Of a stretch of 64,000 nucleotides of DNA, positions 4,465-58,541 are shown in pieces (positions within the stretch are counted from its first letter, which is position 1; the number at the start of each line of letters is the position of its first letter). A program made the translations under genes and the position numbers. This DNA comes from Cymodocea nodosa (Eukaryota > Streptophyta > Magnoliopsida > Alismatales > Cymodoceaceae): assembly GCA_036874045.1 (NCBI GenBank), contig CM072341.1, positions 8,320,501-8,384,500 on the forward strand. Reading direction: 5' to 3'. A model generated the notes under the pieces. It had not been told where the DNA came from. It ran no database searches and was given only the letters and a program-made list of their open reading frames with translations.

Positions 4465-4465
4465 G

Positions 4466-5125
4466 AGACCAACTGGAAATTGGGATGAAGATCTATGCTT
4501 AAGTGTGTATAATTTTCTAAATAGATCTTGAAATGAAAATACTGTGATATATCTAGGATAGAAAGTATTAATTAACAACATACATGTCATATTTGATGGA
4601 TATATATATCTAGTCATAGATATATCAGTTGCATTTAGATCTAATTTATACATAGTAAGCATAGATAGTTATGATGATGACTTTATAGAAATATTGCCTA
4701 TACCTAATGATATAGTTGAACCACCATCTACAGAACATGATAAAATTCAATTAGGAGTGTGGTACAATGAATATAATGATCCTACTTTATGTTTAATAAG
4801 ATGGTGGGATGAATTGATGAAATTTCAAATATGGATTATGAAAGACCTAAATGAATGGAAGTGGGAAGAGGAATATATTGAAATATATGTAGCAATAGAA
4901 ACAACTACATTATCCTAGAACAAAAGAGGATCCCTTTCTGCATTTCAATTCATTAATGGTAATACACTTGTATTTAGCATTGATAACATATTACAAGTTT
5001 ACATGTTAAAAAGAGAAGCAAATTGCAATAAAATAGAATTAAAAGCAAGAAGAATGATGCGTAAAGGTTTTGCTTGGACTAACACGTTTATTCCATTTGT
5101 CACTACTTTTCAATCATGTTCTTAA
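4466..5125 (+). pseudogene. F-box gene copy B, 3' half only
   Basis: Homologous, in the plus orientation, to the C-terminal 58% of the F-box gene at 8800-9939. It starts in RPTGNWDEDL and ends with STFQSCS and a TAA stop at 5123-5125. Shared landmarks are the stretch around IRWWDELMKFQIWIM (about 4795-4840) and FTNTFIPFV-like sequence near the end. At the position where copy A has a TGA stop, this copy keeps TGG (W), which shows that the stop in A is a mutation. Here another TGG has become TAG at about 4916. The N-terminal F-box half is missing because the LTR fragment joins directly upstream. It is not expected to be functional. Confidence 0.75.
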
Positions 5126-5160
5126 ATTGTGATTTTGTATGTTTTTTTTATGTTGTGTGT

Positions 5161-7013
5161 TGTTTGTGTTTTCCCAACACTACACTAGAAAAACTTGGAT
5201 TTGTTACTTCTATTTTTACTTAGTTAATTTATCTTTATGCCTATTCTTTCTTTTAGAAGTAAACAAACAACCTTTAATACAATTTAGATATTAATTCCAA
5301 TTTGTACTTTAACTACAAGTGCACAGTGTCTATTGTATCAGTGTGCAAGTACAGGTTGATCTCACAAGGAATTGCTGACGAATTTAAGAAATGTTTGATT
5401 GTGAACAATTCAAATTTATATTCAATAAGCACTCTGTTGAGTTACAGTTAACTCAACGGACTAAGTTCGTTGAGTTATGGCTAACTCAACAGACTATCCT
5501 CGTGGACTTAAGTTAACTCCACGAGCCTATCTCTTCTTTATAATACTACTATTTACAAAGGAATTCGGCCAACCATTGGGCGATTCCACAAATTGTAAAT
5601 AACATCAATTAAGCTTTTTAATGCTAGTTAACATTGGATTTATCATTATGCAATACTAACATTCAGATGATTCAAACAGCAACCATTAAAATCTTTAAGT
5701 TGTTTTGTACAAACCAATTTCAGTAAACTGTAAAATTAAAACTAACATAAAACAATCATAAAACTGATACAGATAACATTAATCACGATACAACACAAAC
5801 AATACAACACTCAAATACAATATACAAACAAAGATAAATTGTTTTTGGTATTTTTGTTTTTATGTGATGGGCGAAAGGTGAAATGTAAAGTAATTTCACT
5901 TGATAGTAAATACTTTCGACACTAGTTGCAACGCGATTACACCACTGAAAATTGAACCACGTACAATTCTATCTCCTCTCCCTATAGAATCGCGAGTCCA
6001 GAATTGCAAGATGATCTCCACTTCAGCATACAGGCATCAACCCGAAGCCAAGGCTAAAAGCTTTACGATCTCCTGAAATATGAGTCGGCGCTTGGTGAAA
6101 ATGTCTTCCCTTCCCGCGACGCAATCACTCCTCATAGTGGTTGTCAGACACTGTGTTTAGCTCGAAATCGACCCGACATCAGGCAAGTATCCTCACAGAC
6201 CTTCGATGATTGGTCATTATGATGGTGATACGATGGTTGGTGTGATACTTCGAAGAATCGCCGATACTGTCTACAGAAAGCTCGGTGCTCCTCCTCTGTA
6301 TACACTGGCCATCCATCGATCACCCCTTTTCTTTTTTTCTTCTTTTCTTTTATATTTCTTCAGTGGTAACTGCTTCTACTTGAATGATCGGTTGGATTTC
6401 CTTCCTTCAGATCAACGGCGATGATTTCTTTCTCCCTACGTGATTGAATTCCTATGTGATACGTGCGAACGTGGTTTTTCCTTCCAACTGTCTGTTACTA
6501 CAACCGCTATAGTGGCATATTAGAAAATATATAGTCCGTGGAGTTACAGATAACTCAACGGACTTCCTTCGTTGATTTAACTATAAAACACGTGCAAAAA
6601 TAACAACTAAAGTTTATAACGCTAACCTAACGCGTTGCCTTAGTGTATTTTCATGTAACTCAATGCGTGCAGTTATACTAACTTAACGAGTTATAACGTA
6701 AGTAAATCTACCAGCTCTCAACACGTGTCAGTAGCAGTTTAAACATAAAATAACATTTCGGAGAGTTACAGGTATAACTATCCGATGCTCAGATGCATTT
6801 TTGGATACTTAAGAATTTCACAACCTGCAATTTACCGATAGTTCATAAATGTACTAAATTAACATTAATTCCCCAAAATTAAGCAAATTCTTCAATTAAA
6901 GCATATAATAGTGGAATTATAACATAATGGCTTAATTCTCATATGATAAGCTAAATATTATGCAATTAACTATCATTTAACCGTTAATAATATGCACTTT
7001 TTCATTCTAAACA
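5161..7013 (-). repeat. 3' LTR of element A
   Basis: 1853 bp, nearly the same as 20081-21922, with a few differences per 100 bp by eye. A TATA box reads TATAAAA on the minus strand at 6348-6354, 659 bp inside the LTR start. U3 holds hairpin words at 6535-6810. The R/U5 side holds hairpins at 5443-5522. Confidence 0.9.
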
Positions 7014-7026
7014 CTTCCCCCATACC
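7014..7026 (-). other. Polypurine tract of element A
   Basis: On the minus strand, TATGGGGGAAG immediately precedes the 3' LTR start TGTTTAGAATG. This is where plus-strand DNA synthesis is primed. The same tract abuts the LTRs of B (to 23769) and C (to 28127). Confidence 0.8.
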
Positions 7027-8799
7027 TAAATTTTGCTAATTCCTTAGCAAACTAAGATCTAATTAATTGGTCTTTCAAAAAGTGCTATAATTAATTCTTC
7101 CCCTTTTGTTTTTTTTCTTCTGTTTAGCATAAACATATATTCTGTATGTTTCAGTAATCAACCTGCAAAGATATTTAGAATATATGTAAATTACATACAA
7201 AGTATATCATCTTCATATAGGTGTTAATTATATTATCGTTTGTTCTTCTTTTCATCATCTATAATCCTGAATTTTTCAATAAGTTTTCTAGAAGAAATTT
7301 CAACAACATACGAATCAAAGTACAATCCAATTCAATCTGATTAAGACAAGTAGAATAAAGAATTGTATTTCCATTAAACAACTTCAAAAGTCAATTCCAG
7401 ATTCATATTTCAGCAATTCTAGATAACAGAAAATATACTCAATTCATAAGATATCTGTATTTCACAAAACACTTGTATCTTTTCATAACAGTATATGTTT
7501 TTTTCTTTTTCTTTTTTTTTCTCTTTTTTTTTGTGTACTTTAAAAGTTAATTTGACAAGCTTGAATCATGCAAGAGCTTTCTAATGTACCCATGTAACGA
7601 GCTTTCAGTCAACAATCCCAGATCTGATCAAGATCTTAAGTTGCCAGATTTTCAGAGTCCTTTTGAGGTCAACAATCCTTACATACCTATCGTCTCAAGT
7701 ACAAAAGGCTCGTGATCAAACAAGTCAATAACCTCTCAATATATTTTTTTTTTCTTTTTTTTTCTAAAAATAAATGCACACACAAAATAAAGCATTAATC
7801 ACATACTGTATATGCACGTATTTCATTAATACAGATGCAGTAAAACACCAATCTCATATAATCCTGCTTCTATCATTTACTAAAGATATGAATCCATAAC
7901 AATAAGCTCATACTTTATCTGTAGTTTAATAAGATCTACACATAAATCATTCTACAAGTTCAATCAGTCAAAGTAAATGTATCTTTCATCATATGTGTTT
8001 CATTTAATCTAGAATTCACATCTCAGCTCCTTTAGGACTTTAGATAATTTTTTGATTAAGCATTAAATATTCTGATTTCATTTTAGAATCATGAAACTGT
8101 TAAACTCATGAAATTCAGAAAAATCATAAGATACTATATCTAGATTTACATAAATAATAAATTCTATAGCATCTTCTATAGCCTTGTAAATATAACATTC
8201 AAGCAGTTTATAAAAATTTTACAGTCTCAATTATCGAATAGTTACAGCAAGTTCATAAAAGTTTTCAATTTCCTCAAAACTTTGTAGTACCATTTTAATT
8301 CCTTTAATTAACAAACTTACATGGTTGTTACTTTAATTACCTCCCCCCCATACCTACATTTTGCATTGTCCTCAATGTAAAAGATTTGACAATAAGTACA
8401 GTAATTGTAGCAGGCATGAATAAAGTTTTGTTTGATTTAAAATTCAGGATAAGTAATTGGTTACATACCTTGTTCCATTTGTATCTCTTTCTGCATATTC
8501 CAATTTTTGATTCTGAAAAACTTTTCATTCCTAGATAAACACAGAATATAAAACAAAATAACATTTAACAAATATTAATAAATCAGTGTCTTGTGTGAAA
8601 CCCAAGCTCCTATGCCTTTGGTGGCTCACAAGCAAGCTAGTTGGTTTCCTAGAACAGATACCAACAAACTGGATTGATATTTTGTTTTATTTGTTTTTTG
8701 GTTTTTTTTTTATAAAATGAACATGAAAAACTTCAAAAAAAAAAAAAATTTCTAAAAATAAATGCAGAATACACAACATTAAACACACAAAATCACAGC
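7027..8799 (-). other. Conserved 1.8-kb non-coding block between F-box and polypurine tract
   Basis: No long ORF. The block is collinear with 21923-23769 (B) and 26336-28127 (C), so it travels with the F-box. Conserved landmarks include a motif around gagccaccaaaggc (near 8618), a T/A-rich run after the F-box stop, and an internal polypurine tract. The reason for its conservation is not evident from the sequence. Confidence 0.7.
8341..8365 (-). other. Internal (central-type) polypurine tract of element A
   Basis: On the minus strand, GCAAAATGTAGGTATGGGGG is followed by GGAGGTAATTA, about 1.3 kb upstream of the true PPT, whose context is GCAAAATTTAGGTATGGGGG. The shared 20-nt context suggests one is a copy of the other. 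Corresponding tracts lie at 22409-22437 (B) and 26783-26812 (C). Confidence 0.6.
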
Positions 8800-9939
8800 T
8801 TAAGAACATGATTGAAAAGTAGAAACAAATGGAATAAATGTATCAGTCCAAGCAAACTTTTTAGGCATAGTTCTTCTTGCTATTAATTCTGTTTTAATGT
8901 AGTTCTTGGTCCTTTTTAATTTGTAAACATGCAATATATTATAAATTCCAAATACGAGTGTATTACCATTAATGATATGTAATGCAGAAAGGGATCCTTT
9001 CTGGTTCCAGGGTAATGTAGTAGTTTCTATTTCTACATCTATTTCAATATACTCCTCTTCCCACTTCCATTCATTCATGTCTTCCATAATCCATATTTGA
9101 AATTTCATCAGTTCATCCCACCATCTTATCAGACATAAAGTAGGATCATATTCTTCATTATACCACATTCCTATTTGAATTTTATTAAATTTTTCAGATG
9201 GTGGTTTAGCTATTTCACTCGGTATAGGTAAAATTTCTGTATAATCATCATAACTGTCTATGCTCACTATGTATAAATCAGATCTATATGCTATAGATAT
9301 CTCCGTGACTAAATATATATAACCATCAAGTATGACATGTGTTTGGTTAATTAATGATTTCTGTCCTAGATATATTATAATGTTTTCATTCCAAGATCTG
9401 TTCAGAAAATTATACACACTTAAGCGTAAATCTTCACCTCAATTTCCTGTAGGTCTCCAATAATATAATTTTTCTGGATATGCAGAATTTTTATCAGAAA
9501 ATATTAAAGCTGACCCACAATTTTCAGTTGGCGCTTCAAATATATTAGGTCTTCCTATATTACATTCTTCTCCTGTTATAGGATTTCTTATCAAAATCTC
9601 AGGTAATGATAAACTTGCATACCTTGGTCTCGTCTTATATATGATTAATCCTTCATCTATCCCCATAATATGACTCATTCCTTCTAATGCATTAGTTGGA
9701 ATTCCAGTAGTTTCTTCCATAGCCAGATATTCATGGGTATTTGAACTACGATTAAATGACCTCCATATGAATCCATCTCTAATCTTAGTCATTTTTGCAG
9801 CTTGTAGTCCCTGAAAATATTCTTCTTCAATATAGTCTTTAATTTCCTTTGATACACAACACATCCTGCACAGATCTTTAGCTGACAAGTTACTTAGTAT
9901 TTCCCTTTGTGCATCCAACGGTAATTGCATTAATTCCAT
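8800..9939 (-). pseudogene. F-box gene carried by element A (full length, one internal stop)
   Basis: A 379-codon reading frame. Residues about 5-37 (LPLDAQREILSNL...LCRMCCVSKEIKDYI) form an F-box, the motif that binds SKP1 in SCF ubiquitin ligases. The remainder resembles the substrate-binding C-terminal region of plant F-box proteins of FBA/kelch type, with NPITGEE and several aromatic β-strand-like segments, e.g. IRWWDELMKFQIWIM. A single TGA at about codon 167 (after WRPTGN) splits the frame; the homologous codon in copy B is TGG. There are no introns. It lies in the same direction as gag and pol, 190 bp after the gag-core segment, in the env-like position. The origin is probably a captured host transcript, which is inference. 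The target protein is unknown. Confidence 0.8.
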
Positions 9940-10011
9940 TTGTCGATTCTGTAAAATAAAAACAAAAATTTAGTAAAGACAAAAATTAACATAACTACTA
10001 CACACCCTCAT

Positions 10012-10075
10012 GGAGTTAAGGCATAACTCAACGGACTAGTCCATTGAGTTAAAAATTAACTCTACGATACTATTA
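10012..10075. repeat. Hairpin pair in the gag/F-box spacer
   Basis: Two GTTGAGTTA/TAACTCAAC-type half-sites (gttaaggcataactcaac and attgagttaaaaattaact) lie in the 193-bp gap between the gag-like segment and the F-box start. The same words occur in the LTRs. Confidence 0.6.
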
Positions 10076-10132
10076 ACTTAAAATAAAAAAAATATATATA
10101 TACATACAGATAGTTGCTTCAGATATGCTGCT

Positions 10133-11458
10133 TCATTCAACTGCCCTCCCAGAAGAGGTATCAATTTCATTAACTGTTCTATTGACAAGATTAGGTATAG
10201 CTTGTATTGGCAATCCTCCAGTAGGTCTAACTTCCATTGGTTCCTTCTGTCTAAGTAATATATTTCTATTCTGATTTTGATTTACAGCAATTCCAAATAT
10301 AAATTCTAGACGATTGTTTACTTGTTGGATTATCTTTTCTAATTTCTCTATAATAGCTCCTTGTTCAATTAATACTTCATAACTTATGTTCTTCTCATTT
10401 ATATTTTCTCCTCCCTGGAAATTGTTGTTTCTCCAAGATAAATTTGGGTGATTTCTCCAATTAGGATTATAAGAATTTCCCAAGTTATCTCTCTGGTTTC
10501 TAGCGTAAATAATAAATAATATCTAAGTCATTTATGTTTGTATTCTTTTCTACTAGCTTTTGATTTAATGATAACTCTTCTATTTTCTTTGTTAATTCAT
10601 TTAATTTCACCTCAAGCATAGTATTGGAATCTATTTCATGCATTCCTCTTAGCAATAATCTTTTATCTGCAATAGCTTCAGCTGAATTTTCCCACTATGC
10701 AGTTCTTTTTGCAAAATTTTCTAAATATGCCCATGCTTCTTCACTACATAATTTTAAAAATCCATTTTGACAAGTAGATTCTAATAAAGATTTCGTTGAA
10801 ACATCTATGCCTTCATAAATTATGCCTATTAATTGTGCTTTACTCATTGCATGATGTGGACATTGAGTTAGTAAATCTTTAAATCTTTCAAAATATTTCT
10901 AGAATGATTCACCCTATTTTTGGCTACACATTAATATTTCTTTCTTCTTTTTAATCGTTTGATGTGTTGGATAGTATTTTTCCAGAAAAACAAAGCAAAA
11001 TTCAGTCCATGTAGAAATTGAATCAGGCGATAGAGTATATAACCATCTTTTAGCTGTATCTTTTAAAGCAAAAGGGATATATCTAAGTTTAATAGCATCT
11101 ATACTCATGTTCGGCATTCTCATCATTTGACAAACTTCGTTAAATTCTCTAAGGAAATAATAGGCATCCTCTCTTTCTAATCCATGAAAATGTGGCGATT
11201 AACTAATATAATTAGATTTCAGTTCAAACCTATCTCTCTCAAAGTTTGGCAATCGAATACATGAAGGTTCATCAATTAATTCAGGATACAGAATCTCTCC
11301 TAATGGTTTTTCTACTAGAGCAGTCATCTCTACGTTCTCTTTTAAAGAAAGGTTAGCTACACCCCAAAGAATTTCATTAAAGTTCAGTTCAGAAAATTTT
11401 TCAGTACTCCTCTACAATGAAAATTCCTGGATAGGTGTTCTTACTAATCGTTTAGTGC
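10133..11458 (-). pseudogene. Second gag-like segment (capsid core), downstream of pol
   Basis: Broken frames carry a Retrotrans_gag core: IRLPNFERDRFELKSN, then YIPFALKDTAKRWLYTLSPD and STWTEF..FLEKYYPT (about 10914-11126). A YEGIDVSTKSLLEST-like block follows, then YNPNWRNHPNLSWRNN (about 10430-10480) and a C-terminus, VNEIDTSSGRAVE, at 10133. These are the expected Athila gag landmarks in order, but no CCHC knuckle is visible between them. At least four in-frame stops are present, mostly TAG. Gag should follow the PBS; here it follows integrase and the accessory ORF and precedes the F-box. The gag piece at the normal place (18908-19960) lacks this core, so the two pieces complement each other. 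Confidence 0.7.
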
Positions 11459-11715
11459 TTAGAGAACGAGTCCATGTGCTCATAAATAAATAACAGAAGA
11501 TTAATTACATACCAGTCTGAAGCTTTCCATTCTATAAATATTTGTTGTCGGATGAAGGTTGAATCAATTGCTTCTCCTTCCAGTTCCTCCAACGCTTTCT
11601 CCTTTCTCTTAAAAGTGCTAGTAACTCGTAAATAACATTCTGTTTCATATATATATTGTGCATCCATAAAGTGAATAAATCTCGTTGCAAGAACGTGTCT
11701 TGCAACGTGCATCAT
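11452..11715 (-). CDS. Hypothetical 87-aa ORF upstream of the gag-core segment
   Basis: An open frame of 87 codons with a charged middle (KRKEKALEELEGEAI). No family was recognised. A donor-like sequence, CTG/GTATGTAATT, lies inside it on the minus strand at about 11512. It could be the 5' end of the downstream gag frame, spliced or frameshifted, or chance. Confidence 0.25.
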   Translation of the reverse strand: MMHVARHVLATRFIHFMDAQYIYETECYLRVTSTFKRKEKALEELEGEAIDSTFIRQQIFIEWKASDWYVINLLLFIYEHMDSFSKH

Positions 11716-11779
11716 GGTTCCTGTTTTAAGGGTACGTGTACCACTACTAATTTCAAATTTTGGTAACCGCTAAACCGAC

Positions 11780-12010
11780 GAAGTTTCGTTTGTGGTTAAA
11801 AGAATAACTGTTCTGCTTAATCCACGAACTAACCTCGTTGAGTTACAGATTACTCAATAGAACATAGTCGGTTATTATTGCTAACTCCACGGACTAACTT
11901 AGTTGAGTTACAAATAACTCAACGGAGTGACCTTATATTATATTACTGACCTCGTGGAGTTACGGTTAACTCAACGGAATTACTTCATTGAGTTAACACT
12001 TGGCAACTTC
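11780..12010. repeat. Cluster of GTTGAGTTA/TAACTCAAC palindromes
   Basis: About seven half-sites in both orientations, e.g. gttgagttacaaataactcaac and gtggagttacggttaactcaac, between the accessory ORF and the gag-core segment. The adjoining stretch 12011-12432 is AT-rich and nothing was recognised in it. Confidence 0.65.
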
Positions 12011-12432
12011 TAAGTTTCACTCTCGTAAGTTTTCTATTCTGTTTTTTTTTTTTCTTTGTTTTTCATTCTGCTAACTGTAATAAAGTTAAATCTATGTCAT
12101 TAATGCCTCATTTTGATTAAAATACATTTAAATCTGAACATTATATAAAGATTTAAATTGCAGGTCATTTTATGTTATGCAGAATTTACATTTTACCTTA
12201 TAACATGTAGAAATTTTTAAGCAGTTATCCTGTCATTCAGCAAATTGTAAATCTGTTACATATTCATAAAGTTCCACAAATTACATAATATTCAATAAAT
12301 TCCATTCATTTCACATTCAAATACGTATGAAAATTGCATCTGAAAAATTATATTCATTAATATGAATCAATTACATTACAAGTACATCATACAATTTCAT
12401 ACAATTTTACATAAGTAGACGAACAATACAAT

Positions 12433-14660
12433 TTAATCTTTATGCCTAAGTTCATCTACTTCCTTCTGGAGTTTTTCTAATTGCTGCTCTAATTGATTTA
12501 TCCTCTCTACTACTCTTGTAATTTCTCCAGAAGGTACAGCTAATTTTGCAGCTACAAAATTTCTGTATTCTTTCACTGAAATGGTTCTAGATCTTATCCT
12601 TTTTTATGTCCATTTAGTGAAATCAATACTATCCACCATCAGCAGTGGAATCAAATCTCCATAAAATAATTTCTTCTTCACTACTTTCAGCTTGGAGATA
12701 AAAACTACAGACCAATTTATTTGGATCTTATTTACAACTGCATACGTGGCCCATTTGACAAATTGACTTAATTCTATGTCATGGCCCTATCGTTGATAGA
12801 CATTCTTAATCAGAATGTAAGCTACCATGTGTGCTTTACCATTTAAATGCTTCAATCTATTTAATAATGGCACACCAGGATTGATAGCTAAACAATCCAT
12901 AATTTGCTGCTCAGTCCATTCAACTGCAGTTGTATCTTCCAAAATTTTTGTTCCTTCATTCTTTAAACCAAATATGTTGTGGAGAAGCTCTAGTGTTATC
13001 TGTACATCAGCTTCCTCCACGTTTGAAATTAATCCTCCTTCTCCTTCTCTTAAATTTGCATAGAAACAAGGACTAAATTCTCATATACTGCATGCCCTCT
13101 ATCATGAGATATAAATTGCAGTAGACCTTGGAATTCAAATAGATCTTTGATTTCTTGCATTCCATCCCAATTTACTGGTCCACTATAAATAATATCGTAA
13201 CCCCTTATTTCTTGGTATTTGGTATAAGCTTCCTAACTATAAAAATGTACTTCATTCAAAATTGTTGTTTCAGTCGGGTCAGGAATGTGACTTTTTTGCT
13301 CCAAAGGGGTTTACTCTTGCTCTTCCTCCAGCATAGGCTGCATTTGGACATTCTCTTCAGATTCCTAAATTTTTGCTTTTGCTTCTATCTGTGGTGGTGA
13401 GCCGGCAGAACTCTCCACTCTATCTTGAATTCTTTCCATAATTTGTTGAAGAGTTTCTTGCTCTTTAGTGGAATCTGTGAAATTATTTTTGTCCAAATGG
13501 CTTCTTTCAGCCTCTTCATTTTCTACTATTTCTTCTTCCTCCTAACTACCAATCTGTTCTATTACTGTTCTTTCTAATTCTGTAACAGATTGGGATGGAG
13601 TCATGAGCAATTCAGTTTCTGCCCTAATTTCTGTTTCTTCTTGTACAGGCTGCAAACTAATTTCAGCCTGATTTTTTTCTTTTCTTTGCTCCTCCTGCTC
13701 CTCCTCAAATTCGGATAGCAGGTTAATAAAAATCTGCTCCACAGGCCCTGTAAAAATTGGTACTTCAGATTTAATTTCTTTATAATCAGGCACTTTTTCT
13801 TTTTCTTTCTTTTTTCTGATTAGTTGTGCCTATTCTTCCTCTTCATCTTCTGAAATTAAATCTACAAAAATAGGCTCTGCAGGCTTTCGAACCACAGGTA
13901 CTAGCTCTTCCTGTTTAATTCTTCCAATAATTGCTGGTCTCGAAGGACTAGCTTCAGCTTCTTTTGCAGTATCTCTAACAGCAGTTTTGGCAGTAGCTTC
14001 TTGATGCTGTTCCACTTTAATTTTATATTGGGCTTTCAACTTTTCTGCAACCCTCTTTTTGTACAGTGCATCAAACACCAGGTGTGCTTTAGCCACAGCC
14101 AAATCTTCTGATTCTCCTTGGTTTTTTCCAACTTGAACCAGTTCTGCAAATTCTCTTATTTCTTCTTCAGTCGAAGGCCCCATCATTTCTGCTCGTGCTA
14201 ATGGCTTAAATGGTGGAACTGAAGGCCCAGACTGCTGCTCCTCAGGAACAGGTCTTTAAGTAGTTGGTTCCTCCCGTTCTTCAGTTGCCTCTTCATTTGC
14301 TTTCCTTTCTTGCTCCCAGATCACCTATTTAGCTTGTCTACAAATTCGTCTTTTGAACCAGAGTCGGGACTTACGCTAGATTAATTCTAGGGCAACTTCA
14401 TTACTTGGCCTTATTTGTCTTTCCTTGCTTACAGCTATTTCTGTTGCTATTCTGATTCATGTTTCCATTATTTGAGATATTTGTATATCCATATCTACTA
14501 AATCTCTTCTAAACTTGAAAAGTTCTAATTCTACCTTCTGTAGCTCTTTCTCTCTTGTCATATTTCTGATCTTCTACCGCGTGTGCCACTCTTCTGATTC
14601 CTTCAGAAATTCTGATGTATTAACAACATCTTCCCAGAATTCAGGCGTCATCTTCCTCAT
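12433..14660 (-). pseudogene. Accessory ORF, 'putative plant transposon protein' type
   Basis: A decayed reading frame of about 740 codons starting at ATG 14660 and ending in TAA 12433-12435. The first two thirds are E/K/Q-rich and probably coiled or disordered (E-rich segments near 13542-14186). The last third holds the domain seen in Athila-group accessory proteins: SGPVNWDGMQEIKDLFEF, FYANLREGEGG, HNIFGLKNEG, INPGVPLLNRLKHLNGKAH, VNKIQINW. The same blocks occur at 44590-46005. It lies after integrase, where env-like ORFs of Athila occur. No membrane segment or signal peptide is visible, so I do not call it env. At least eight stops (mostly TAG or TGA) and a frameshift near 13,065 disable it. 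Confidence 0.65.
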
Positions 14661-14829
14661 CGTGGAGTTACACAACAGCACGGAATCACTCTGATTTCTA
14701 TTGTTCTAGATTCTAAATGATTTGTCGGATAATGCCCCCAAAACCCTAGGTTTTAGTTTAAATAAGCACTAAATTTAGGTGGGTAATCGGGTCATTTCCC
14801 GAACCAACTATTACTATTTTATCCGCGGT

Positions 14830-14945
14830 CTTAGCTACAGTACTCCGTTGAGTTACAAGTAACTCAACAGACTAAGCTCGTTGACTAACTCAAGACTTAA
14901 CGGAGTATGCTCGTTGAGTTAAGCGTAACTCAACGGACTCCCCGT
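14830..14945. repeat. GTTGAGTTA/TAACTCAAC palindrome cluster
   Basis: Three near-perfect hairpins in about 115 bp, e.g. ccgttgagttacaagtaact and gttgagttaagcgtaactca. It lies between the accessory ORF and the integrase side of element A. Confidence 0.7.
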
Positions 14946-14997
14946 ACAAGCAAATATAATAATAAAAATATTACAGAGAATAGTTTTTCTATTTTTT

Positions 14998-15225
14998 TTA
15001 CAGGTTTAACCAATACTATGCTTCGGTCAGACCTAAATATTTTTTATTTTTTTATTTTTCTTTTAGTTAAATCGATACTATGTTTCGGTAAAACCAATAT
15101 TTTTTTTGAAAATTAATATACAATTTTTTTCCGGTTGAACCGATACTATGCTTCGATCAGACCAAAATATTTTTTTTAATTTTCTGGTCATACCGATGGA
15201 TCCAGTCGGTTGAACCGCAACTATT
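14998..15225. repeat. TTCGGTC-type palindromic array after integrase
   Basis: About four degenerate units (ggtttaaccaatactatg, cttcggtcagacc, cggttgaaccgatactatgc) separated by T-rich runs. It is of the same type as 1106-1745. An AT dinucleotide run follows at 15236-15272. Confidence 0.65.
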
Positions 15226-15293
15226 TTTATGTTTTATATATATTTTTAATGTTTTATATATATATATATATAAACATAAAAACTGATTTCTTA

Positions 15294-16588
15294 CTAAGTA
15301 AAACTCGAGTAGTCCTCTACTCTAACTTCTTCTATAATTCCAAAGGAGCTTTTTGGTGTTTTCAGAATAGGTTTAAGTCTTTGTCCATTTACTTTAAATA
15401 TATTCTGATTTTTAGGATTTTCAATTTCACTCCATAAGGATAAACATTTCAAACTATGTAAGGTCCTACCCATCTAGATCTTAATTTTCCTAGATGGTTA
15501 TGGAGTCTAGCCATATAAAGATATACTTCTTGTCCTATTTCAAAGTTTTTAGGAATAATTTTTCTATCATGTCAGAATTTAATTTTCTCTTTTTCTCTTA
15601 CAGTCTTTGAATAAGCTTCATTTCTAAATTCTTCTAATTCAATTAGTTGCATTTTCCTATTTTTAGCAGTTTGATTTAAATTAGTGTTCAGAATTTTTAA
15701 TGCCCAATAAGCTTTATGTTCTATTTCAACAGGTAAATGACAACTTTTTCCATATACTAGCCTAAAAGGTGGCATACCTAAGCTCGTTTTATAAGTAGTT
15801 CTATAAGCCCAAAGTGCATCAATCAATTTATTAGCCCAATCTGTTCTAGTAGGATTTACTACTTTTTCCAAGATTAATTTAATTTGTTTGTTTGCACTTT
15901 CTACTTGTCCACTTGTTTGCGGATGATATGATGTTGCAATTTTGTGGTTTATTCCATATTTCTTCATTAAGGCTTCAAAACTTCTATTACAAAAATGAGT
16001 TCCTCTATCACTGATAATAGCTTTAGGTATTCCAAATCTAGCAAATATATTTGTTCTTATAAATTGTATTACCACTTTGTTATCGTTAGTTTTTGTAGGA
16101 ATAGCTTCTATCCATTTAGATACATAATCCACCCCCAACAATATGTAATTAAATTGATTAGATATAGGAAATGGACCCATAAAATCTATTCCCCACACAT
16201 CAACGATTTCAACCTCAACAATAGGATTAAGAGGCATCATATTCCTCTTTGATATTCTTCCTATTTGTTGACATCTTAAACAACTTAAGCAATATTTATG
16301 AGCATCTTTGAATAGTGTTGGCCAATAAAACCCACATTGTAGAATTTTTGCAGCAGTTTTCCCTAAACCAAAATGTCCTCCACAAGCTTGGTCATGACAG
16401 AAAGACAATATGCTCGAATATTCAGTTTCTAGAACACGCCTCCTTAAAACTAGATCAGGACATTTCTTAAATAAGTAAGGGTCTTCCCAATAGTAATATT
16501 TTACTCTTGAGAAAAACAATTTCTTATCCTGTCTATTCCAATCCTTAGGTGTTAAACCAGTAACTAAATAATTAACTATGTCTGCATA
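15294..16588 (-). pseudogene. Integrase domain of element A pol
   Basis: The N-terminal zinc-binding HHCC region is seen in HDQACGGHFGLGKT...CLSCLRCQQIG. The catalytic core follows with DDE residues: D in VWGIDFMGPF, D in ISDRGTHF, and E in SGQVESANKQIK. The C-terminal part contains ARLHNHLGKLRSRWVGPY and ends VNGQRLKPIL...FT with TAG at 15294-15296. In the family this enzyme inserts the cDNA and makes 5-bp duplications, as seen for this element. Disruptions: TGA in place of an expected W at about 16588, at about 15572 (KF-stop-HDRK) and after GPYIV, plus a small deletion near 15425. The open part (15572-16519) is 315 codons. Confidence 0.9.
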
Positions 16589-18184
16589 TCAAAGCATTGT
16601 GTTGATGGTCATTAATTGTTCATCAGGAAAATTATCCTTAATTTCAATATTTGATTTTTCTATTTGTAATCTTGATAAATGATCTGCTACTACATTCTCA
16701 CAACCTTTTTTATCTTTAATTTCTAGATCGAATTCTTGCAATAATAATATCCATCGGATCAATCTAAGTTTAATTTCTTTTTTCTTTATTAGATGTTTTA
16801 GAGCTGAATGATCCGTGTATACTATTACTTTAGCTCCAATCAAATATGATCTAAACTTTTCTAAAGCAAACACAACAGCTAATAATTCTTTTTTAGTAGT
16901 TGTGTAATTAACTTGAGCATCATTTAAGGTTTTGCTTGCATAATGAATCACTCTAGGAGATTTTTCTATTTTCTGTCCTAACACTGCTCCTACAGCAAAA
17001 TCAGAAGCATCGCACATTAATTCAAATGGATGGTTCCAATTAGGTACTTGAATTATAGGAGTTGAAATTAAGCTAGTCTTAAGTCTAAAAAATGCTTCCT
17101 TGCAATTTTTATCAAAGTTAAATGGAACATCTTTTAATAGATTAGTTAAAGGTCTAGCTATCTTGCTAAAGTCTTTAATAAATCTTCTATAAAAACCAGC
17201 ATGTCCTAAAAATGATCTAATATCTTTTACTAATTTAGGTTCTGGTAGATTAGAAATTACTTTTATTTTAGCTTTATCTACTTCCAACCCTTTTTTAGAA
17301 ACAACATGCCCTAAGACTATTCCTTGTTTAACCATGAAGTGACATTTTTCCCAATTTAAAACCAGATTTTTTTCCACACATCGTTTTAATATTTGGTCTA
17401 AATTGCTTAAACACACTTCATATGAGTTGCCATATACAGTAAAATCATCCATAAATATTTCTAAAAATTCATCAGTCATTCCAGTAAATATGCCCTGCAC
17501 ACACCTTTGAAAGGTAGCTGGTGCATTGCATAATCCAAATGGCATTCTTTTAAAAGCATAAGTTCCATTAGGACAAGTGAAAGTTGTTTTCTCTTGATCT
17601 TCTAATGCTACTGGAATTTGATTATACCCTAAATACCCGTTTAGGAAACAAAAATATTCTTGTCCTACTAATCTTTCCAGCATTTGATCTATAAAAGGTA
17701 AGGGAAAATGATCTTTCCTAGTCACAGCATTCAGCTTTCTATAGTCTATACATACTCTCCAGCCTGATTGAATTCTAGTAGATATCAAGTCTTGACTTTC
17801 ATTCCTAATAACTGTTAATCCTGATTTCTTGGGAACTACATGGATTGGACTAACCCACGAGCTATCAGAAATCGGATATATTATATCATTATCTAACCAT
17901 TTAACTATTTCCTTCCTGACTACTTCCTTAAGGTTTGGATTTAATCTCCTCTTAGGAATTCTAATAGGTTTAGCATTCTCTTCTAAATATATGTGGTGAC
18001 AGCATAAAGTTGAACTTAACCCTTTTATATTAGTCACAGTCCATCCTATTGCTTCTTTATAACTTTTTATTACATCTTTTAATTTAGCTATTTGATCCTC
18101 TTTCAAATCTAAAGCAATAATGATTGGACAGGTCCGTTTATCTTCCAGAAATATATATGTTAATTCAGAAGGTAAAGGTTTTAA
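16589..18184 (-). pseudogene. Reverse transcriptase and RNase H of element A pol
   Basis: A 505-codon open stretch (16589-18106) plus its upstream part. The RT palm shows [11 protein letters not shown], then [13 protein letters not shown], then the catalytic FMDDF (usual YxDD in this branch) and [11 protein letters not shown]. RNase H follows with [38 protein letters not shown] (E) and [11 protein letters not shown] (D), ending ADHLSRL. The catalytic residues are intact. Upstream a TAA at about 18183 replaces what is probably a Q or K codon ([14 protein letters not shown]), and downstream a TGA separates it from integrase. The enzyme copies element RNA into cDNA in cytoplasmic particles. Confidence 0.92.
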
Positions 18185-18907
18185 TTATAAATGCTGCCCA
18201 TCAGAAGCTAGAGCTCCTAATTGAACATCATCATTTTTTAAATTAATTTCTTCCTGATCTACTTCTATATTTATGCTTTCACTTTCTTCTAAAGTTTCAG
18301 AATTGATTTGCCTATTTAATTCTTCTTGAATCACATCATCTAACATATCTCCTTCATCCTCTAAAAAGTCTATGGTATATAAGGACATTTCTAACTCCTC
18401 AAACCTTTCTAGTTTGAAAATATTTAATTGAGTATCCTCATTACCATATGCTAACTTCATTACTCCAATTTTACAATTTATAACAGCCCCTGATGTTGCT
18501 AAAAATGGTCTTCCCAAAATTAAAGATGTATCACTATTTTTATGCTTAATTTGTTGGGAATCCAAAATTACAATATCAATAGGATATATAAAATTCTTGA
18601 TTTTAATTAAGACATCCTCTATTTTTCCTCTAGGATATCTTATACTTCTATCAGCTAATTGAATAACCGTACTAGTAGGAGTTAAGCCTTCTAATCCTAA
18701 GGATGCAAATATATCACTTGGCAAAACATTTATACCTGCACCTAAGTCTATTAAGGTTCTTTCTAGAATGGTATTTCCTATGGTGCATGATATAACAAGG
18801 ATTCCAGGATCAGATAACTTTTTAGGAATTTGTGGCAGAAATAGGTAACTACTTTGCTCAGCTAAAAAGACCTTTCTAAGAACTTTTCGCTCTCTTTTCT
18901 TAGTACA
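18185..18907 (-). pseudogene. Aspartic protease domain of element A
   Basis: The frame reads ISCTIGNTILERTLIDLGAG around 18730-18810, where DLGAG is the plant gypsy form of the D(T/S)GA catalytic motif. INVLPSDIFASLGLEGL and the flap/return segment LGRPFLATSGAVINC follow. The protease would cut the Gag-Pol polyprotein. The upstream edge, near FLKD at 18908, has a stop and a probable frameshift. An acidic linker (SETLEESESINIEV) leads to RT. Confidence 0.85.
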
Positions 18908-19960
18908 TCAATCCTTCAGAAATTTAGCACAAGGTGGCATATTCTGCAATAGATCTAACAAAGGAATGTTAACTTGTACTTTTTCAAAAATTTCTCTGAT
19001 TTTTTCTTGTTTTTCAGGAATTGTTTGTTGTAATCTTTCAGGATAGGGTGCTAAAGATTTTGATTTCAAAGACTCTTTTTCTTTCAATTGATTTGTTTGA
19101 TCATTTTTAACTTCAATTGCATATTCAACTTGTTCTTCAGTGATTTCTAGATTTTCAGCTATTACATTTTCATAACCATTTTGATTTTTATTCTTGTCCA
19201 CCTTCATATCATTTTCATTTTGAGTTCTTGGTGGTATATCAGTTCCAGATCTTAATGTTACACATACATCTTCCAGATTTTCGTTACTTTCATGATGTTT
19301 TTGTATATCATTTTCGTGATTATGATCTTCAATTGTTTTTAGTTTTAAAGTGCATTCTTTAAATTCTCTTACATTTGTGTTTTATGTTTGTTGTATATTT
19401 TGCAAGTTGTGCAGGTTTATAACATTATAATTTTCATTGTCCTATTGTAAAACTTGTATTTTCATTGCATTTTTGTCTAATGCTTTTAATTTTGTTTCCA
19501 GATCATTTAATTTCATTGCATTCAATTTTTGATCAATTTTCTTTATGACTTTTTCAGTTTCGTAAATTATATCCTGTTTAGGTTCTGAATATACCTCCTT
19601 ATAGTTTAATTGGTTGACTTCTTGTTGTTGACACACAAAATATTCCAATTTGTCCAGATTTTGCTCTATACTATGCTCCAGTCTGTCATACCTATCCCAA
19701 ACTTCAATGTCTCTCATCATATTACACATTCTATACTGACCATCAGTTGGGTAAACTATAGGATTCTCATACTCGACTTTATTATTTTGAGGATAATTCA
19801 TTTGTTGTTCATGGGATCTATCAATCTGTAAATGTCTCAATTTCAAACAATCAGAAATGTCGTGTCCTTCAGAATTGCAGAATTCACATATGCTAATTAA
19901 AGGTTTCAGAAATCTTTGAGCATAAGCATATGCAATATTCTCAATTACAGAAGAAAACAC
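18908..19960 (-). pseudogene. gag remnant: zinc knuckle and pre-protease region
   Basis: 19442-19960 holds a CCHC knuckle, CEFCNSEGHDISDC (CX2CX4HX4C), followed by a Q/K/E-rich coiled region. 18908-19207 carries the Athila pre-protease landmark APYPERLQ...NIPLLDLLQNMPPCAKFLKD. The capsid core expected before the knuckle is absent: only about 95 bp separate this frame from the PBS. The stretch 19208-19441 continues the region with stops. See the second gag-like segment at 10133-11458 for the missing core. Confidence 0.75.
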
Positions 19961-20005
19961 ACAACTCTAACTATTAAAATGAAACAGCTCTAACAGTTGC
20001 TTATA

Positions 20006-20055
20006 TCTATTCAATTCAATTCAATTCAATTCAAATCAATTCAGTTCAATTCAAT
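20006..20055. repeat. (TCAAT)n simple repeat beside the PBS
   Basis: About nine imperfect copies of tcaat/ttcaa directly downstream of the primer-binding site in element orientation, at the place where gag should start. Confidence 0.8.
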
Positions 20056-20073
20056 TCCCTGGCAACGGTGCCA
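20056..20073 (-). other. Primer-binding site, tRNA-Asp type
   Basis: Minus strand TGGCACCGTTGCCAGGGA. It matches the complement of the plant tRNA-Asp 3' end (TGGCGCCGTTGCCGGGGA, as I recall it) with two differences, both G-to-A. A 7-nt spacer (AGTTTTA) separates it from the LTR end. Confidence 0.85.
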
Positions 20074-20080
20074 TAAAACT

Positions 20081-21922
20081 TGTTTGTGTTTTCCTAGCAC
20101 TACACTAGACAAACTTGGATTTGTTACTTCTATTTTTACTTAGTTAATTTATCTTTATGCCTATTCTTTCTTTTAGAAGTAAACAAACAACCTTTAATAC
20201 AATTTAGATATTAATTCCAATTTGTACTTTAACTGCAAGTGCATAGTGTCTATTGTATCAGTGTGCAAGTACAGGTTGATCCCACAGGGAATTGCTGACG
20301 AATTTAAGAAATGTTTGATTGTGAACAATTCAAATTTATATTCAATAAGCACTCCGTTGAGTTACAGTTAACTCAACGGATTAAGTTCGTTGAGTTATGG
20401 CTAACTCAATAGACTATCCTCGTGGACTTAAATTAACTCCACGAGCCTATCTCTTCTTTATAATATTGCTATTTACAAAGGAATTCGGCCAACCATTGGG
20501 CGATTCCACAGATTGTAAATAACATCAATTAAGCTTTTTAATGCTAGTTAACATTGGATTTATCATTATGCAATACTAACATTCCGATGATTCAAACAGT
20601 AACCATTAAAATCTTTAAGTTTTTTTGTACGAACCAATTTCAGTAAACTGTAAAATTAAAACTAACATAAAACTAATACAGATAACATTAATCACGATAC
20701 AACACAAACAATACAACACTCAAATACAACATACAAACAAAGATAAATTGTTTTTGGTATTTTTGTTTTTATGTGATGGGCGAAAGGTGAAATGTAAAGT
20801 AATTTCACTTGATAGTAAATACTTCTGACACTACTTGCAACGCGATTACACCACTGAAAATTGAACCACGTACAATTCTGTCTCCTCTCCCTATAGAATC
20901 GCGAGTCCAGAATTGCAAGATGATCTCCTCTTCAGCATACAGGCATCAACCCGAAGCCAAGGCTAAAAGCTTTACGATCTCCTAAAATATGAGTCGACGC
21001 TTGATCAAAATGTATTCCCTTCCCACGGCGCGATCACTCCTCACAGTGGTTGTCAGGCACTGTGTTTGGCTCGGAATCGACCCGACATCAGGCAAGTATC
21101 CTCACAGACCTCCGATGATTGGTGATTATGGTGGTGATACGATGGTTGGTGTGATACTTCGGAGAATCGTCGATACTGTCTACAGAAAGCTCGGTGCTCC
21201 TCCTCTATATACACTAGCCATCCATCGATCACCCCTTTTTCTTTATTTCTTCTTTTCTTTTATATTTCTTTAGTGGCAACTGCTTCTGCTTGAATGATCG
21301 ATTGGATTTCCTTCCTTCAGATCAACGGCGATGATTTCTTTCTCCCTATGCGATTGAATTCCTGTGTGATACGTGCGAACGTAGTTTTTCCTTCCAACTA
21401 TCTATTCCTGCAACCGCTACAGTGGCATATTAGAAAATATATAGTCCATGGAGTTACAGATAACTCAACGGACTTCCTTCGTTGATTTAACTATAAAACA
21501 CGTGCAAAAATAACAACTTAAGTTTATAACGCTAACCTAACACGTTGCCTTAGTGTATTTTCATGTAACTCAACGCGTGCATTTATACTAACTTAACGAG
21601 TTATAACGTAAGTAAATCTACCAGCTCTCAATACGTGTCAGCAGCAGTTTAAACATAAAATAACATTTCGGAGAGTTACAGGTATAACTATCCGATGCTT
21701 AGATGCATTTTCAGATACTTAAGAATTTGACAGCTTGCAATTTACCGACAGTTCATAAATGTACTAAATTAACATTAATTCCCCAAAATTAAGCAGATTC
21801 TTCAATTAAAGCATATAACAGTGCAATTATAACATAATGGCTTAATTCTCATATGATAAGCTAAATATTATGCAATTAACCATCATTTAACCGTTAATAA
21901 TATGCACTTTTCATTCTAAACA
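20081..21922 (-). repeat. 5' LTR of element A
   Basis: 1842 bp, TG...CA ends. Read on the minus strand, U3 starts TGTTTAGAATGAAAAAG. Hairpin/G-box words lie at 21443-21720 and the TATA box at 21258-21264, giving a U3 of about 658 bp. The R/U5 portion of about 1.18 kb carries hairpins at 20352-20440. It would drive transcription leftwards. Confidence 0.9.
21258..21264 (-). promoter_or_regulatory. LTR TATA box (element A promoter)
   Basis: Minus strand GAAATATAAAAGAAAAG. The same motif lies at 6348-6354, 34544-34550 and 63191-63197, always about 1.18 kb before the LTR 3' end. In LTR B it is mutated to TACAAAA at 24732. Confidence 0.65.
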
Positions 21923-23769
21923 TGTGTATTTTGCATTTATTTTTGAAAGAAAAAAAAAAACAAAAAGCCAACTTTTAGTTTCTATTTTATTTATTTTTAG
22001 AAAAGAAGAAAACAAACAAAATATCAATCCAGTTTGTTGGTATCTGTTTTGAGAAACCAACTGACTTGCTTGTAAGCCACCAAAGGCATAAGAGTCTAGG
22101 TTCCACACAAGACATTGATTTAACAATTTATGTTTTGTTGTTAAGCTATTATTTTGTTATATATTCTGCTTTTATTTGGGAATGAAAAAGTTTTTCAGAT
22201 TCAAAAGTTGGAAGATATTGAAGGAGATACAAAGAACAAGGTATGTAATTGATTACTTATCCTGAATTTACATTCAAGCATAGTTCGTGGAGTTATTCAT
22301 TAACTCAATGAATTAAGTTTGTCGAGTTAGGTGCTAAGTTAATGGAACATTATTCATGCCTGCTAACACTTTATGTATTTACTATAAATCTTTTACATTG
22401 AGGATAATGCAAAATGTAGGTATAGGGGGAGGTAATTAGATTAAAATCCAAGTAACCTTGTTAATTAGAGGAATTACGATTGTGCTACAAATTTCTATGG
22501 AAACTGAAAATCTTTTATGAATTTGCTGTAACTAACCAAAATTTCTTATAACTATCTGATAATTGAAACTTTGAAATTTTTTTTTTTTTGAGAACTATAA
22601 TTACTTGAATATTATATTTAGAATCTTATATAATATGCTACAAAATTTTACTATTAATACAAATCTGGATATAGTATCTTATGTTTTTGCTGAATTTTAT
22701 GAGTTTAATAGTTTCACGATTTTAAAAAAAAATCAGAATACTTAACTAAAACTCTAGAAATGATCTAAAATTCTGAAAGAGTTGAAATGTTGATTTTTGG
22801 ATTAAATGAAATGCATATGATCAATGATACATTTAATTTGATTGATTAAACTTATAGAATGATTTACATGTAAATCTTATTAAACTACGAAAAAAGTATG
22901 AGCTTATTGATATGGATTTATGTTTTCAGTAAATTATAAAAGTAGGATTATATGAGATTTGTATTTTATTGCATCTATATTAATGAAATACATATATACT
23001 GTGTTGAAAAGAAAAAAAAAGGAAAAAAACAAAAAAACTTTGAGAATTTATTGATTTGTTTGATCACGAGCCTTTTGTATTTAAGTAGATAGGTATGTAA
23101 GGATTGTTGACCTGAAAAATGACTCTTTAAATTTGGCAACCTAAGATCCTAATCAGATTTAGGATTGTTGACTAAAAGTTCGATACTTGGGTACACTACA
23201 AAGCTCTTGTATGAATCAAGCTTTTCAAACTAACTTTTAAAGTAAAAATATGCATATACTATTTTGAAAAGATAAAAGTGTTTTGTGAATACAGATATCT
23301 TTTGAATTGAGTATATTTTCTATTATCTATGATTACTGAAGTATGAATCTAGAATTAGACTTTTGAAGTTGTTTATTTGAGATACAATTCATTATTCTTC
23401 TTGTTTTAATCACATTGAGTTGAATTGTGTTTTGATTCGTATGTAACTGAAATTTATTATAGAAGTCATATTGGGAAATTCAAGATAACAGATGTTTGAA
23501 AAGAAAAAAATGATAATATAATTACCACCTATGAGATGCTAGTATATTTTGTATGTAATTTACATATATTTTAAATATATTTATAGGTTGGAGAGGAGAA
23601 AACAATGTTGAATTAGATTACTGAATTAATACAGAATATCATTATATTAATCTAATCTATGTATTCTTAAGATACAAAATGAAGAATTAGTTCTAGCACT
23701 TTAGAAAGACTAACTAGTTAGACCTTAGTAGTTTGATAAGGGATTAGCAAAAGTTAAGTATGGGGGAAG
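21923..23769 (+). mobile_element. Element B tail: non-coding block, internal and terminal polypurine tracts
   Basis: Continues from 5160 across the insertion of A; TGTGT at 21923-21927 is the duplicated target. Collinear with 26336-28127 and with the minus strand of 7014-8799. The internal polypurine tract is at 22409-22437. The terminal tract, tatgggggaag, ends at 23769 and is followed by the LTR. No ORF was recognised. Confidence 0.8.
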
Positions 23770-26004: not shown

Positions 26005-26335
26005 ATTGAGATGGTGGGATGAATTGATGAAATTTCAAAAATGGATTATGAAAGACATAAATGAATGGAAGTGGGAAGAGGAATATATTGAAATAGATGT
26101 AGAAATAGAAACTGCTACATTACCTTGGAACCGAAAAGGATCCCTTTCTGCATTTCATTTCATTAATGGTAATACACTTGTATTTAGCATTGATAATATA
26201 TTACAAGTTTACAAATTAAGAAGGAACAAGAATGACATTAAAATAGAATTAATAGCAAGAAAAATTATGCCTAAAAAGTTTACTTGGACTAACACGTTTA
26301 TTCCATTTGTTTCTACTTTTCAATCATGTTCTTAA
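26005..26335 (+). pseudogene. F-box gene copy C, C-terminal quarter
   Basis: 109 open codons matching the end of the F-box protein of element A: RWWDELMKFQKWIMKD at the start, LPWNRKGSLSAFHF in the middle, and TNTFIPFVSTFQSCS plus TAA at the end. About 85-90% of residues agree with A by eye and no stop interrupts it. The 5' three quarters, including the F-box, are missing. Confidence 0.75.
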
Positions 26336-31700: not shown

Positions 31701-32713
31701 TCCTCTAGAATTCTAACTGTACCATCATGTAGTTTAAATTTTATAGTGCCCACACCAACTCTAAAACACACATCATCATTGGCCAAAGTCACTTGACCAC
31801 CCTCCACCTGCTCGTAGGTGTCAAAATACTCCCTAGTAGGAGTCATATGATGTGAATCTCCTGAGTCCATAATCCACTGATCATCAGAATAGGCACTACA
31901 ACAAACTGTAAGAGAAAAGTCATCACCTGACATAGAACTGGTTTCTGCCACAGCAGCCTTTCCTTTGTTCATAAGCTTGGGACAATGTGATTTCTAGTGT
32001 CCTTTCTCCTTACAATAATGGCAAGTATCCCTAGAGTACTTGCTCTTCGACTTGCTTCTACTTCTATTCTTCCCTCCACCTTGTCTCTGGTTTCTTCCCT
32101 TGTTCTCTTGCTGCTAAGCTGAGAGGCCAACACCACTTGCCTCGTTTCTACCATACACCATGTGCCTAAGCTCCCTGGAATGAAGGTTGGACCTCACTTC
32201 TTCCAGTGTAATTGAATCTCTTCCAACTACACAAGATTGAACAAAGTTTTCATAACTCAATGAGAGTGAACAAAGCAAGATAAGAGCTGCATCTTCATCT
32301 TCTATGATTACTCCAATATTCTTGAGTTCCATCAGAATAGCATTTAGCTGATCTAAATACTGCTTAAGAGGTACACCTTCTATCATATTTAAAGAGAACA
32401 GTCTCTACTTTAACAACAATTTGTTTGTTAAAGACTTAGTCATATACAATGACTCAAGTTTCTGCCAAAGACCTAACGAGTTAGATTCATCAGCAACTTT
32501 TATTATAACTTCATCAAACAAACACAACAAGATGGTGGAGTGAGCTTTCTCCTCCTGCAATTCAAACTCTAGCGAATTTCTGTTTAGAGTAGTTTCCTTA
32601 TTTAAAGGAGCCCAAATACCTTGTTGCTTTAGAAGTGCTTTCATCTTAATTTGTCATAAGCTAAAGCTATTCTTACCATCAAACTTTTCTATCTTCAACC
32701 CCGAAGTATTCAT
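28779..32713 (-). pseudogene. copia Gag-Pol polyprotein (TNT 1-94-like), about 1310 codons
   Basis: Starts MNTSGLKIEKFDG at 32713. The gag region (UBN2-like) ends in a CCHC knuckle, CHYCKEKGH..SHC, near 32,010. The protease motif is WIMDSGDSHHM. Integrase shows HSRMGHL and CKHCIFGKQKRVSF, DCWGPS, RTDNGL and an E in NEVAERLNRT. RT has YVDDILIA (about 29,740) and GRILGMEI-like sequence. RNase H has DLDYAGDVDGRRS and STTEAEYVA, ending near 28779. At least ten in-frame stops, mostly TAG or TGA at expected Q or W codons, and a frameshift near 31,632 disable it. The length is close to the TNT1 polyprotein. Confidence 0.9.
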
Positions 32714-58004: not shown

Positions 58005-58480
58005 CTTTGATTTGATCGATCAAAGTTTTTTATTTTTTCCTTTGATCTGACTAAAGCTCAATTTCGATTAGACTAAAGATTTTTAATTTTTTAATTTTTT
58101 CTTTTAGTTTGATCGAAGTTCAACTTTGATCCAATAAAAGTTTTTTATTTTCTTATTTTTTCCTTCAGTCTGATCGAAGTTCAACTTCAGTCTAATTGAA
58201 GTTTTTTATTTTTTACTTCAGTCTAATCGAAGCTCAACTTTAGTCAAACCAACTTTTTTAACTTTTTCCTTTGGTCTGATCAAAACTTAACTTTGGTCCA
58301 ACCCAAGTTTTTTATTTTTTTATTTTTTCCTTCGGTCTAACTGAAAGCTCAACTTCAATCTAACCAAAGTTTTTTAATTTTTTCCTTCTATCTAACTGAA
58401 ACTCAACTTTAGTCCAACTGAAGTTTTTTATTTTTTACTTCGATCTAATAGAAGCTCAACATTGATTCGATAGAAATTAT
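58005..58480. repeat. TTCGGTC/GACCGAA-type palindromic array
   Basis: About nine units of 45-60 bp, e.g. ccttcggtctaactgaaagc, tcaacttcggtc-like and T-rich spacers; strongly C-to-T decayed. Same type as 1106-1745, and it abuts an LTR-like repeat. Confidence 0.7.
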
Positions 58481-58541
58481 TTATTTATTTTATTAAATAG
58501 CTATGATTAATATTATTAAAATTATTTAATTCTTTCCTATT

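Follow-up and report, generated by a model that had tools for sequence, protein, structure and literature searches.

Does an F-box gene that lies inside a plant LTR retrotransposon (LTR, long terminal repeat) belong to the element, or is it a passenger taken from the host? F-box proteins give target specificity to SCF ubiquitin ligases and help mark proteins for destruction. The question is raised by a stretch of 64,000 nucleotides of the Cymodocea nodosa genome (GenBank assembly GCA_036874045.1, contig CM072341.1, positions 8,320,501 to 8,384,500 of the forward strand), called here the window and numbered from its first letter. In it, a 379-codon F-box reading frame (8800-9939, minus strand) is located within element A, a Ty3/gypsy element of about 16.8 kb (5161-21922, minus strand) flanked by the 5-bp target-site duplication TGTGT (5156-5160 on the left, 21923-21927 on the right). 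The original prediction, made from the letters of the window, was that an LTR-retrotransposon family had captured a host F-box transcript and multiplied it as cargo, and that the protein could once have been directed at a host protein of defence or silencing. Multiplication of the F-box as part of such a family is borne out by our analysis, with hundreds of copies in the genome and an LTR after the F-box and its downstream block in 18 out of 20 sampled loci.

The frame itself is real and runs on the same strand as gag and pol. It carries a single stop, TGA at codon 167 (9441-9439), that divides it into open reading frames (ORFs) of 166 and 205 amino acids, and it matches the Pfam F-box model PF00646 with an E value of 9.8e-10 and 38.4-38.7 bits, above the curated cutoff of 20.5. 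Between the F-box and the polypurine tract (PPT) of A there is a 1.8-kb block with no long ORF (7030-8790, minus strand), which is common to the family. The two shorter F-box copies that had also been pointed out are present as well, each representing a 3' part: one belongs to a subfamily termed B (4465-5125, plus strand, 84% identical to the F-box of A), and the other, copy C (26009-26335, plus strand, 91% identical), is followed by its own block up to about 28120, a PPT and a partial LTR. The B copy is not directly next to its 1.8-kb block, as had been supposed, because element A is nested in this older, opposite-strand member, between its F-box and its block; the block and PPT of the interrupted element resume at 21928-23769 (plus strand), and its LTR starts at 23770. 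Copy C is abutted by a Ty1/copia-like element (28779-31972, minus strand), whose pieces of reverse transcriptase (RT) and RNase H were assigned by eye.

A protein search with the F-box over the host genome (374.6 Mb in 28 contigs) rendered at least 150 matches with E < 1e-100 and 92-100% identity, these being the best 150 of 5198 loose candidates. Stretches of 10 kb were analysed around 20 F-box matches and, because these loci were found by their F-box and picked from the best matches, partly for long open frames, the sample leans to young, open copies. In the two loci of the 20 that do not show the complete series (L018 and L027), the block is present and no LTR match was found within the remaining 2.7 kb. 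Since the series of F-box, block and LTR recurs across the genome, the position of the F-box next to an LTR is not a matter of chance. Moreover, the upstream parts of four further elements all keep the order of A, and an LTR pair, a primer binding site (PBS) and 5-bp target-site duplications were found in the five complete elements (A and these four), with the PPT recorded for A and C13; in C18, where the LTR end carries mutations, the duplication was identified by eye. Each complete element having its own target duplication, each represents an independent insertion of an element with an F-box. The Kimura two-parameter distance between the LTRs of these five elements is 0.032-0.043 (0.043 for A, whose LTRs are 95.2% identical), corresponding to insertion ages of about 1.2-1.7 million years at 1.3e-8 substitutions per site and year, or of about 2.3-3.1 million years at 7e-9.

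The 5' edge of the A-subfamily F-box was also counted genome-wide with 26-base patterns allowing up to 2 mismatches, which gave 802 sites, 611 in an unspliced form and 191 in a form that lacks a long intron (see below), and 0 sites with reversed-pattern controls; individual inspection covered the sampled loci. Besides the subfamily of A, there are at least three more F-box subfamilies: B, found in at least 40 places at 92-100% identity to the window copy (query 4466-5125); D, in at least 136 places at 86-100% identity to a query from L034; and E (the tail of L022, and L033), which is 76-78% identical to A. The lists for A, B and D were taken as disjoint on the basis of their identity levels. 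In subfamily D, gag lies 5' of the F-box and the block and LTR lie 3' of it, and in E the F-box is followed by the block and LTR-related sequence. Two other explanations of the arrangement seen in the window were discarded: restriction of the F-box to one nested locus is ruled out by the hundreds of copies throughout the genome, and a chimera produced by nesting inside element A by the same order and the individual target-site duplications of the four other elements. Two outcomes had been named beforehand as telling against the original prediction, confinement to this locus and a ratio of nonsynonymous to synonymous divergence (omega) of about 1; what was found is an F-box in hundreds of copies, with a between-subfamily omega lower than 1 and lower than that of out-of-frame controls in the informative comparisons.

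These comparisons were made pairwise by the Nei-Gojobori method, the two other reading frames serving as controls. For the fixed differences between A and B (21 A versus 6 B copies) omega was 0.31 (0.20-0.52), versus 0.72 and 1.41 out of frame, and the differences fell on the three codon positions as 41, 23 and 57 (third-position excess, p 0.001). The D-E pair gave 0.29 (0.21-0.41) versus 0.65 and 0.65, A (L011)-E 0.41 (0.30-0.59) versus 0.64 and 0.80, C-E 0.25 versus 0.54 and 1.14, and B-E 0.37 versus 0.55 and 1.01. An excess of third-position changes was detected for D-E (p 0.0004), A-E (0.002), A-D (0.016) and C-E (0.024), and p ranged from 0.057 to 0.79 in six other subfamily pairs. None of the 68 variants shared by at least two A copies is a stop (0 of 71 in a second run, versus 12 stops among 162 singletons), and 15 of the 21 aligned A copies, a sample partly chosen for open frames, show no stop or gap over the 379 codons. 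As judged from these substitution patterns, we consider with moderate confidence that the F-box has been under purifying selection between subfamilies.

A number of results weigh against this reading. Several pairs are uninformative: A-D (0.50 versus 0.65 and 0.63), A and the window B copy (0.44 versus 0.41 and 1.02), B-C (1.03 versus 0.77 and 0.55), A-C (0.48 versus 0.60 and 0.65), B-D (0.47 versus 0.70 and 0.55) and C-D (0.38 versus 0.75 and 0.45). The out-of-frame value of about 0.65 in D-E also means that 1 is the wrong yardstick for omega. Within subfamily A, a frequency test gave 0.50 for shared variants in frame; the two out-of-frame values were 0.66 and 0.52, and those of the block and LTR 0.51-0.73. 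The same test detected no constraint on gag when this was read in its own frame. Since it fails beside the non-coding controls, the test was dropped as evidence that either the F-box or gag is under selection. In subfamily B, a TAG at codon 161, the codon at which the window copy begins, is common to five of six copies (the window copy at 4465-5125 and the L036-L041 set), so that this subfamily probably spread with a truncated F-box. Stops occurring in more than one copy were also found at codons 59, 97, 126, 167, 183, 193, 311, 313 and 364, and in subfamily D the matched stretch is stop-free in 24 of 136 cases among the matches listed.

The F-box is further distinguished by a splice acceptor of its own. 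A plant-like 3' splice site, consisting of a polypyrimidine tract and then TTTTACAG, lies directly before the F-box ATG, and the intron-bearing copies hold the polypyrimidine tract together with a branch-like motif. In three of the 20 loci (L013, L022 and L027), an exon ending in CTTCAGACTG is joined exactly to the AATCGAC that precedes the F-box start, and in the intron-bearing copies the same exon runs into GTATGT. This junction, which is the one present at the 191 genomic sites, defines in A a long intron of 1564 nt (9949-11512, minus strand) that contains the gag frame, with donor 1 before the gag ATG. In L026, the same acceptor is joined to a second donor located immediately downstream of gag, a junction that defines in A a short intron of 159 nt (9949-10107, minus strand). 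Donor 1 is GTATGT in 17 of 17 intron-bearing copies, and the AG of the acceptor has been retained by 13 of 16 and lost by L010, L012 and L028; L012 has also lost the GT of donor 2. An acceptor-like tract is found at the same place in subfamily E, where the window version TTTGTTTTTATTTTACAG reads TTTGTTTTTGTTTTTCAG.

The presence of exact GT-AG junctions in DNA copies indicates that such spliced RNAs existed and were reverse-transcribed. In a tree based on the columns of the env-like, mid, F-box and block regions, L013, L022 and L027 fall into different clades, with support of 0.875 to 1.0 for the nodes that separate them; unless recombination transferred the splice, it has therefore returned to DNA on more than one occasion. 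Complete spliced elements with target-site duplications are known for the long intron (L030/L013) and for the short one (L032/L026). C13 has lost gag by splicing and yet is an inserted element with both LTRs and a target-site duplication.

The intron that contains gag is part of an uncommon gene order. In the direction of transcription, element A (all features on the minus strand) consists of the 5' LTR (20081-21922, 1842 bp), a PBS of the tRNA-Asp type (20056-20073), an ORF with a CCHC zinc knuckle (19442-19960, motif read by eye, no capsid match), a protease-region ORF (18185-18724, assigned by position, no Pfam protease match), RT and RNase H (16589-18106), integrase (15572-16519), a spacer, an env-like region broken in A (12400-14660), a second spacer termed mid, the gag capsid frame, also broken in A (10133-11483), the F-box, the 1.8-kb block, the PPT (7014-7026) and the 3' LTR (5161-7013, 1853 bp). 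RT-RNase H precedes integrase, as in Ty3/gypsy elements, and the RT of A is 47-69% identical to its best 120 matches in the protein set. The env-like region of a sister copy matches PF20167 weakly (0.0032, under the model cutoff), a model that we take to be linked to Athila elements. The family would be of the Athila type within Ty3/gypsy. A distant relative of the env-like ORF (36% amino acid identity) is found at 45113-45475, away from element A.

The capsid was recognized through a Retrotrans_gag match (2.6e-9) to the ORF of sister copy L011, which begins some 30 bases inside the long intron and terminates ahead of donor 2. From that ATG, seven copies were tried for an open gag: L028 is open over 447 codons, three stop early and three are without the exact start motif. 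The usual order with gag first was not found, the 5' ORF beginning with the zinc knuckle rather than a capsid; the capsid match in A is 3' of the env-like region, and there was none in the 5' parts of the four other elements. In a second, distant Athila-like family, represented by one copy (L035/L042; host C3:14530400-14539399, minus strand), RT, integrase, a capsid placed after pol and a PPT-like tract were observed, without an F-box match. The order with gag after pol may therefore predate the F-box and may be a wider trait.

What could an F-box be used for in such an element? The balance tips toward an accessory protein, translated from a spliced RNA in the manner of retroviral accessory genes, that would bind SKP1 and guide an SCF ubiquitin ligase toward a protein by which the element is limited. 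The full-length RNA would be the genome; splicing to the F-box acceptor would drop gag and render the F-box message, and retention of the intron would keep gag. Both gag and the F-box lie at a great distance from the 5' LTR, and ribosomes would be likely to gain access to them through additional splicing or through an internal promoter. SKP1 binding is to be expected from the F-box motif, which is recognisable in subfamilies A, B, D and E, and target choice would fall to the C-terminal part. The leading guess for this target, drawn from viral F-box proteins by analogy, is a factor of host silencing or defence. Spliced copies without gag would not be autonomous and would rely on Gag from unspliced copies. 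A more complete scheme, which we advance tentatively, would be a retrovirus-like plan in which the capsid lies behind pol and the env-like region, in an intron, and splicing trades Gag for an F-box protein that hijacks SCF and removes a host restriction or silencing factor, as a counter-defence similar to that of P0, the same splice giving rise to gag-less parasites. Against these proposals stand the analogy on which target and defence role depend, the lack of a Pfam match to a known substrate-binding domain beyond the F-box models, and the single-sequence folds of the two window ORFs, which are unusable (mean predicted local distance difference test score, pLDDT, of about 39).

It might also be that the F-box is a conserved gene of the element that acts on the element's own proteins, for instance on Gag or env-like levels, or on the cell-cycle or nuclear-entry machinery, rather than on host defence. 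A regulatory link to Gag would be natural because the module from which the F-box is spliced is also that of gag, and no evidence points specifically to a defence target; on the other side, nothing speaks directly against this possibility, but the known viral F-box or F-box-like proteins include several that act on factors of the host. We regard this possibility as somewhat unlikely, and the accessory protein directed against a factor that limits the element as the preferred reading.

Less favoured, though still to be reckoned with, is the idea that the F-box derives not from a host transcript but from a different virus or element, or that it has an ancient origin within this lineage. The between-subfamily synonymous divergence (dS) of the F-box reaches about 0.5-0.6, so that the subfamilies are old and the F-box appears as an old component rather than a recent capture, and no relative of the F-box protein scored among 1309 and 3224 candidates from a very large protein set including plants, in which the pol control gave 7982 scored; a search of solved structures with the F-box protein rendered no useful relative either. 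F-box genes form a large, fast-evolving plant family, however, and a donor gene can therefore be unrecognisable; moreover, the host's own F-box genes were outside the comparison. As to the predicted capture of a host transcript, no donor gene was found in the host genome, where the matches are filled by element copies and a donor could not be properly looked for, and the dS values point away from a recent event.

That the F-box is passive cargo, a captured gene hitchhiking without use, is improbable. The stop shared by subfamily B, the stops in most of the listed D matches and the undetectable selection within A would all fit with it, and plant LTR elements commonly capture host genes, according to the portions of the literature consulted; on the contrary, the omega values below their out-of-frame controls, the third-position excess, the frame that is open in most of the aligned A copies (chosen partly for this feature) and the conserved splice acceptor argue against it. 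The word cargo in the original prediction holds inasmuch as the F-box is carried and multiplied by the element, and, subfamily B excepted, it probably understates the case in view of the selection and the dedicated acceptor. Finally, that the gag-less junctions are ordinary template-switch deletions and not splicing is hardly credible, because, although the family does hold deletions that look like template switching by their borders without GT-AG (another junction in L009, two deletions in L018 and one in L020), the F-box junctions have borders that coincide exactly with GT and AG, join two donors to one acceptor, recur at 191 sites in the main form, and have intron-bearing counterparts with a polypyrimidine tract and a branch-like motif.

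Captured genes of plant LTR elements are usually viewed as rare passengers, and extra ORFs of unknown function are frequent in these elements. The presence of an F-box gene in an LTR retrotransposon is not in itself a novelty, since one copia-superfamily element of flax with such a gene is already in print; that case is one particular element, for which the passages available mention no family-wide copies, selection or splicing, whereas the F-box described here belongs to a gypsy-type family with hundreds of copies, several subfamilies and a dedicated splice acceptor. Non-element genes carried or copied by LTR elements have likewise been described, in the parts of the sources consulted, for maize Bs1, sorghum and rice (PMC7264820, PMC13317346) and for an LTR-gene of the F-box family in Thlaspi (PMC8764390), and differ from this one in that here a single gene belongs to the element in several subfamilies and in hundreds of copies. 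Conserved sense ORFs between pol and the 3' LTR are a further point of likeness, and splicing has been reported for the env-like gene of Bagy2 (PMC7264820). The tRNA-Asp primer site is a trait of Diaspora and Calypso (PMC1142308), and Athila/Calypso-type elements share with this family long elements, large families and, in relatives, an env-like gene after pol; Diaspora, on the other hand, has gag first in a single gag-pol ORF and no env-like gene, in contrast to a capsid 3' of pol and the env-like region, followed by the F-box.

In BARE1/BARE2 (PMC3735527), as in the family described here, splicing decides which protein is made, and a Gag-deficient subfamily is packaged in the particles of the other; however, BARE splicing favours Gag, whereas here it removes gag before the F-box, and mobilization in trans would be expected here. 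Polerovirus P0 and other F-box-like viral suppressors resemble the element in kind, as plant mobile parasites encoding an F-box or F-box-like protein, homology not being part of the likeness; some P0 proteins can target AGO1, whereas a target for the element F-box is a guess. Neither an F-box gene of LTR elements that is spliced, under selection or present throughout a family, nor a displaced gag, was found in the open-access literature, for the former as covered by titles and abstract openings and with subscription papers mostly outside, and the term F-box has no occurrence in two reviews searched for it (one being PMC7264820). Env-like elements, extra ORFs, control by splicing, gag-less parasites and F-box cargo are thus known kinds, and what is new is that they are combined with several subfamilies, with a splice acceptor devoted to the F-box and with a gag that is displaced and lies in an intron.

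Since the extra ORF of this family codes for a known domain, shows signs of selection, has a splice site to itself and exists in hundreds of natural variants, the effect of an extra retrotransposon gene on the host becomes directly testable. Should the F-box protein remove a silencing factor, transposons would possess an equivalent of the suppressors of silencing found in viruses. With its capsid gene displaced, the family also deviates from the common arrangement in which gag comes first, and the splice provides a clear path to the formation of gag-less copies.

A recurring motif type (GTTGAGTTA/TAACTCAACGGA) was observed in the spacer after integrase (approximately 14850-14940), in the stretch before gag (11850-11990) and in the LTR of A (5430-5530), and is possibly regulatory. 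Elsewhere in the window, short tandem-like internal repeats are present at 1183-2124 and 58023-58494.
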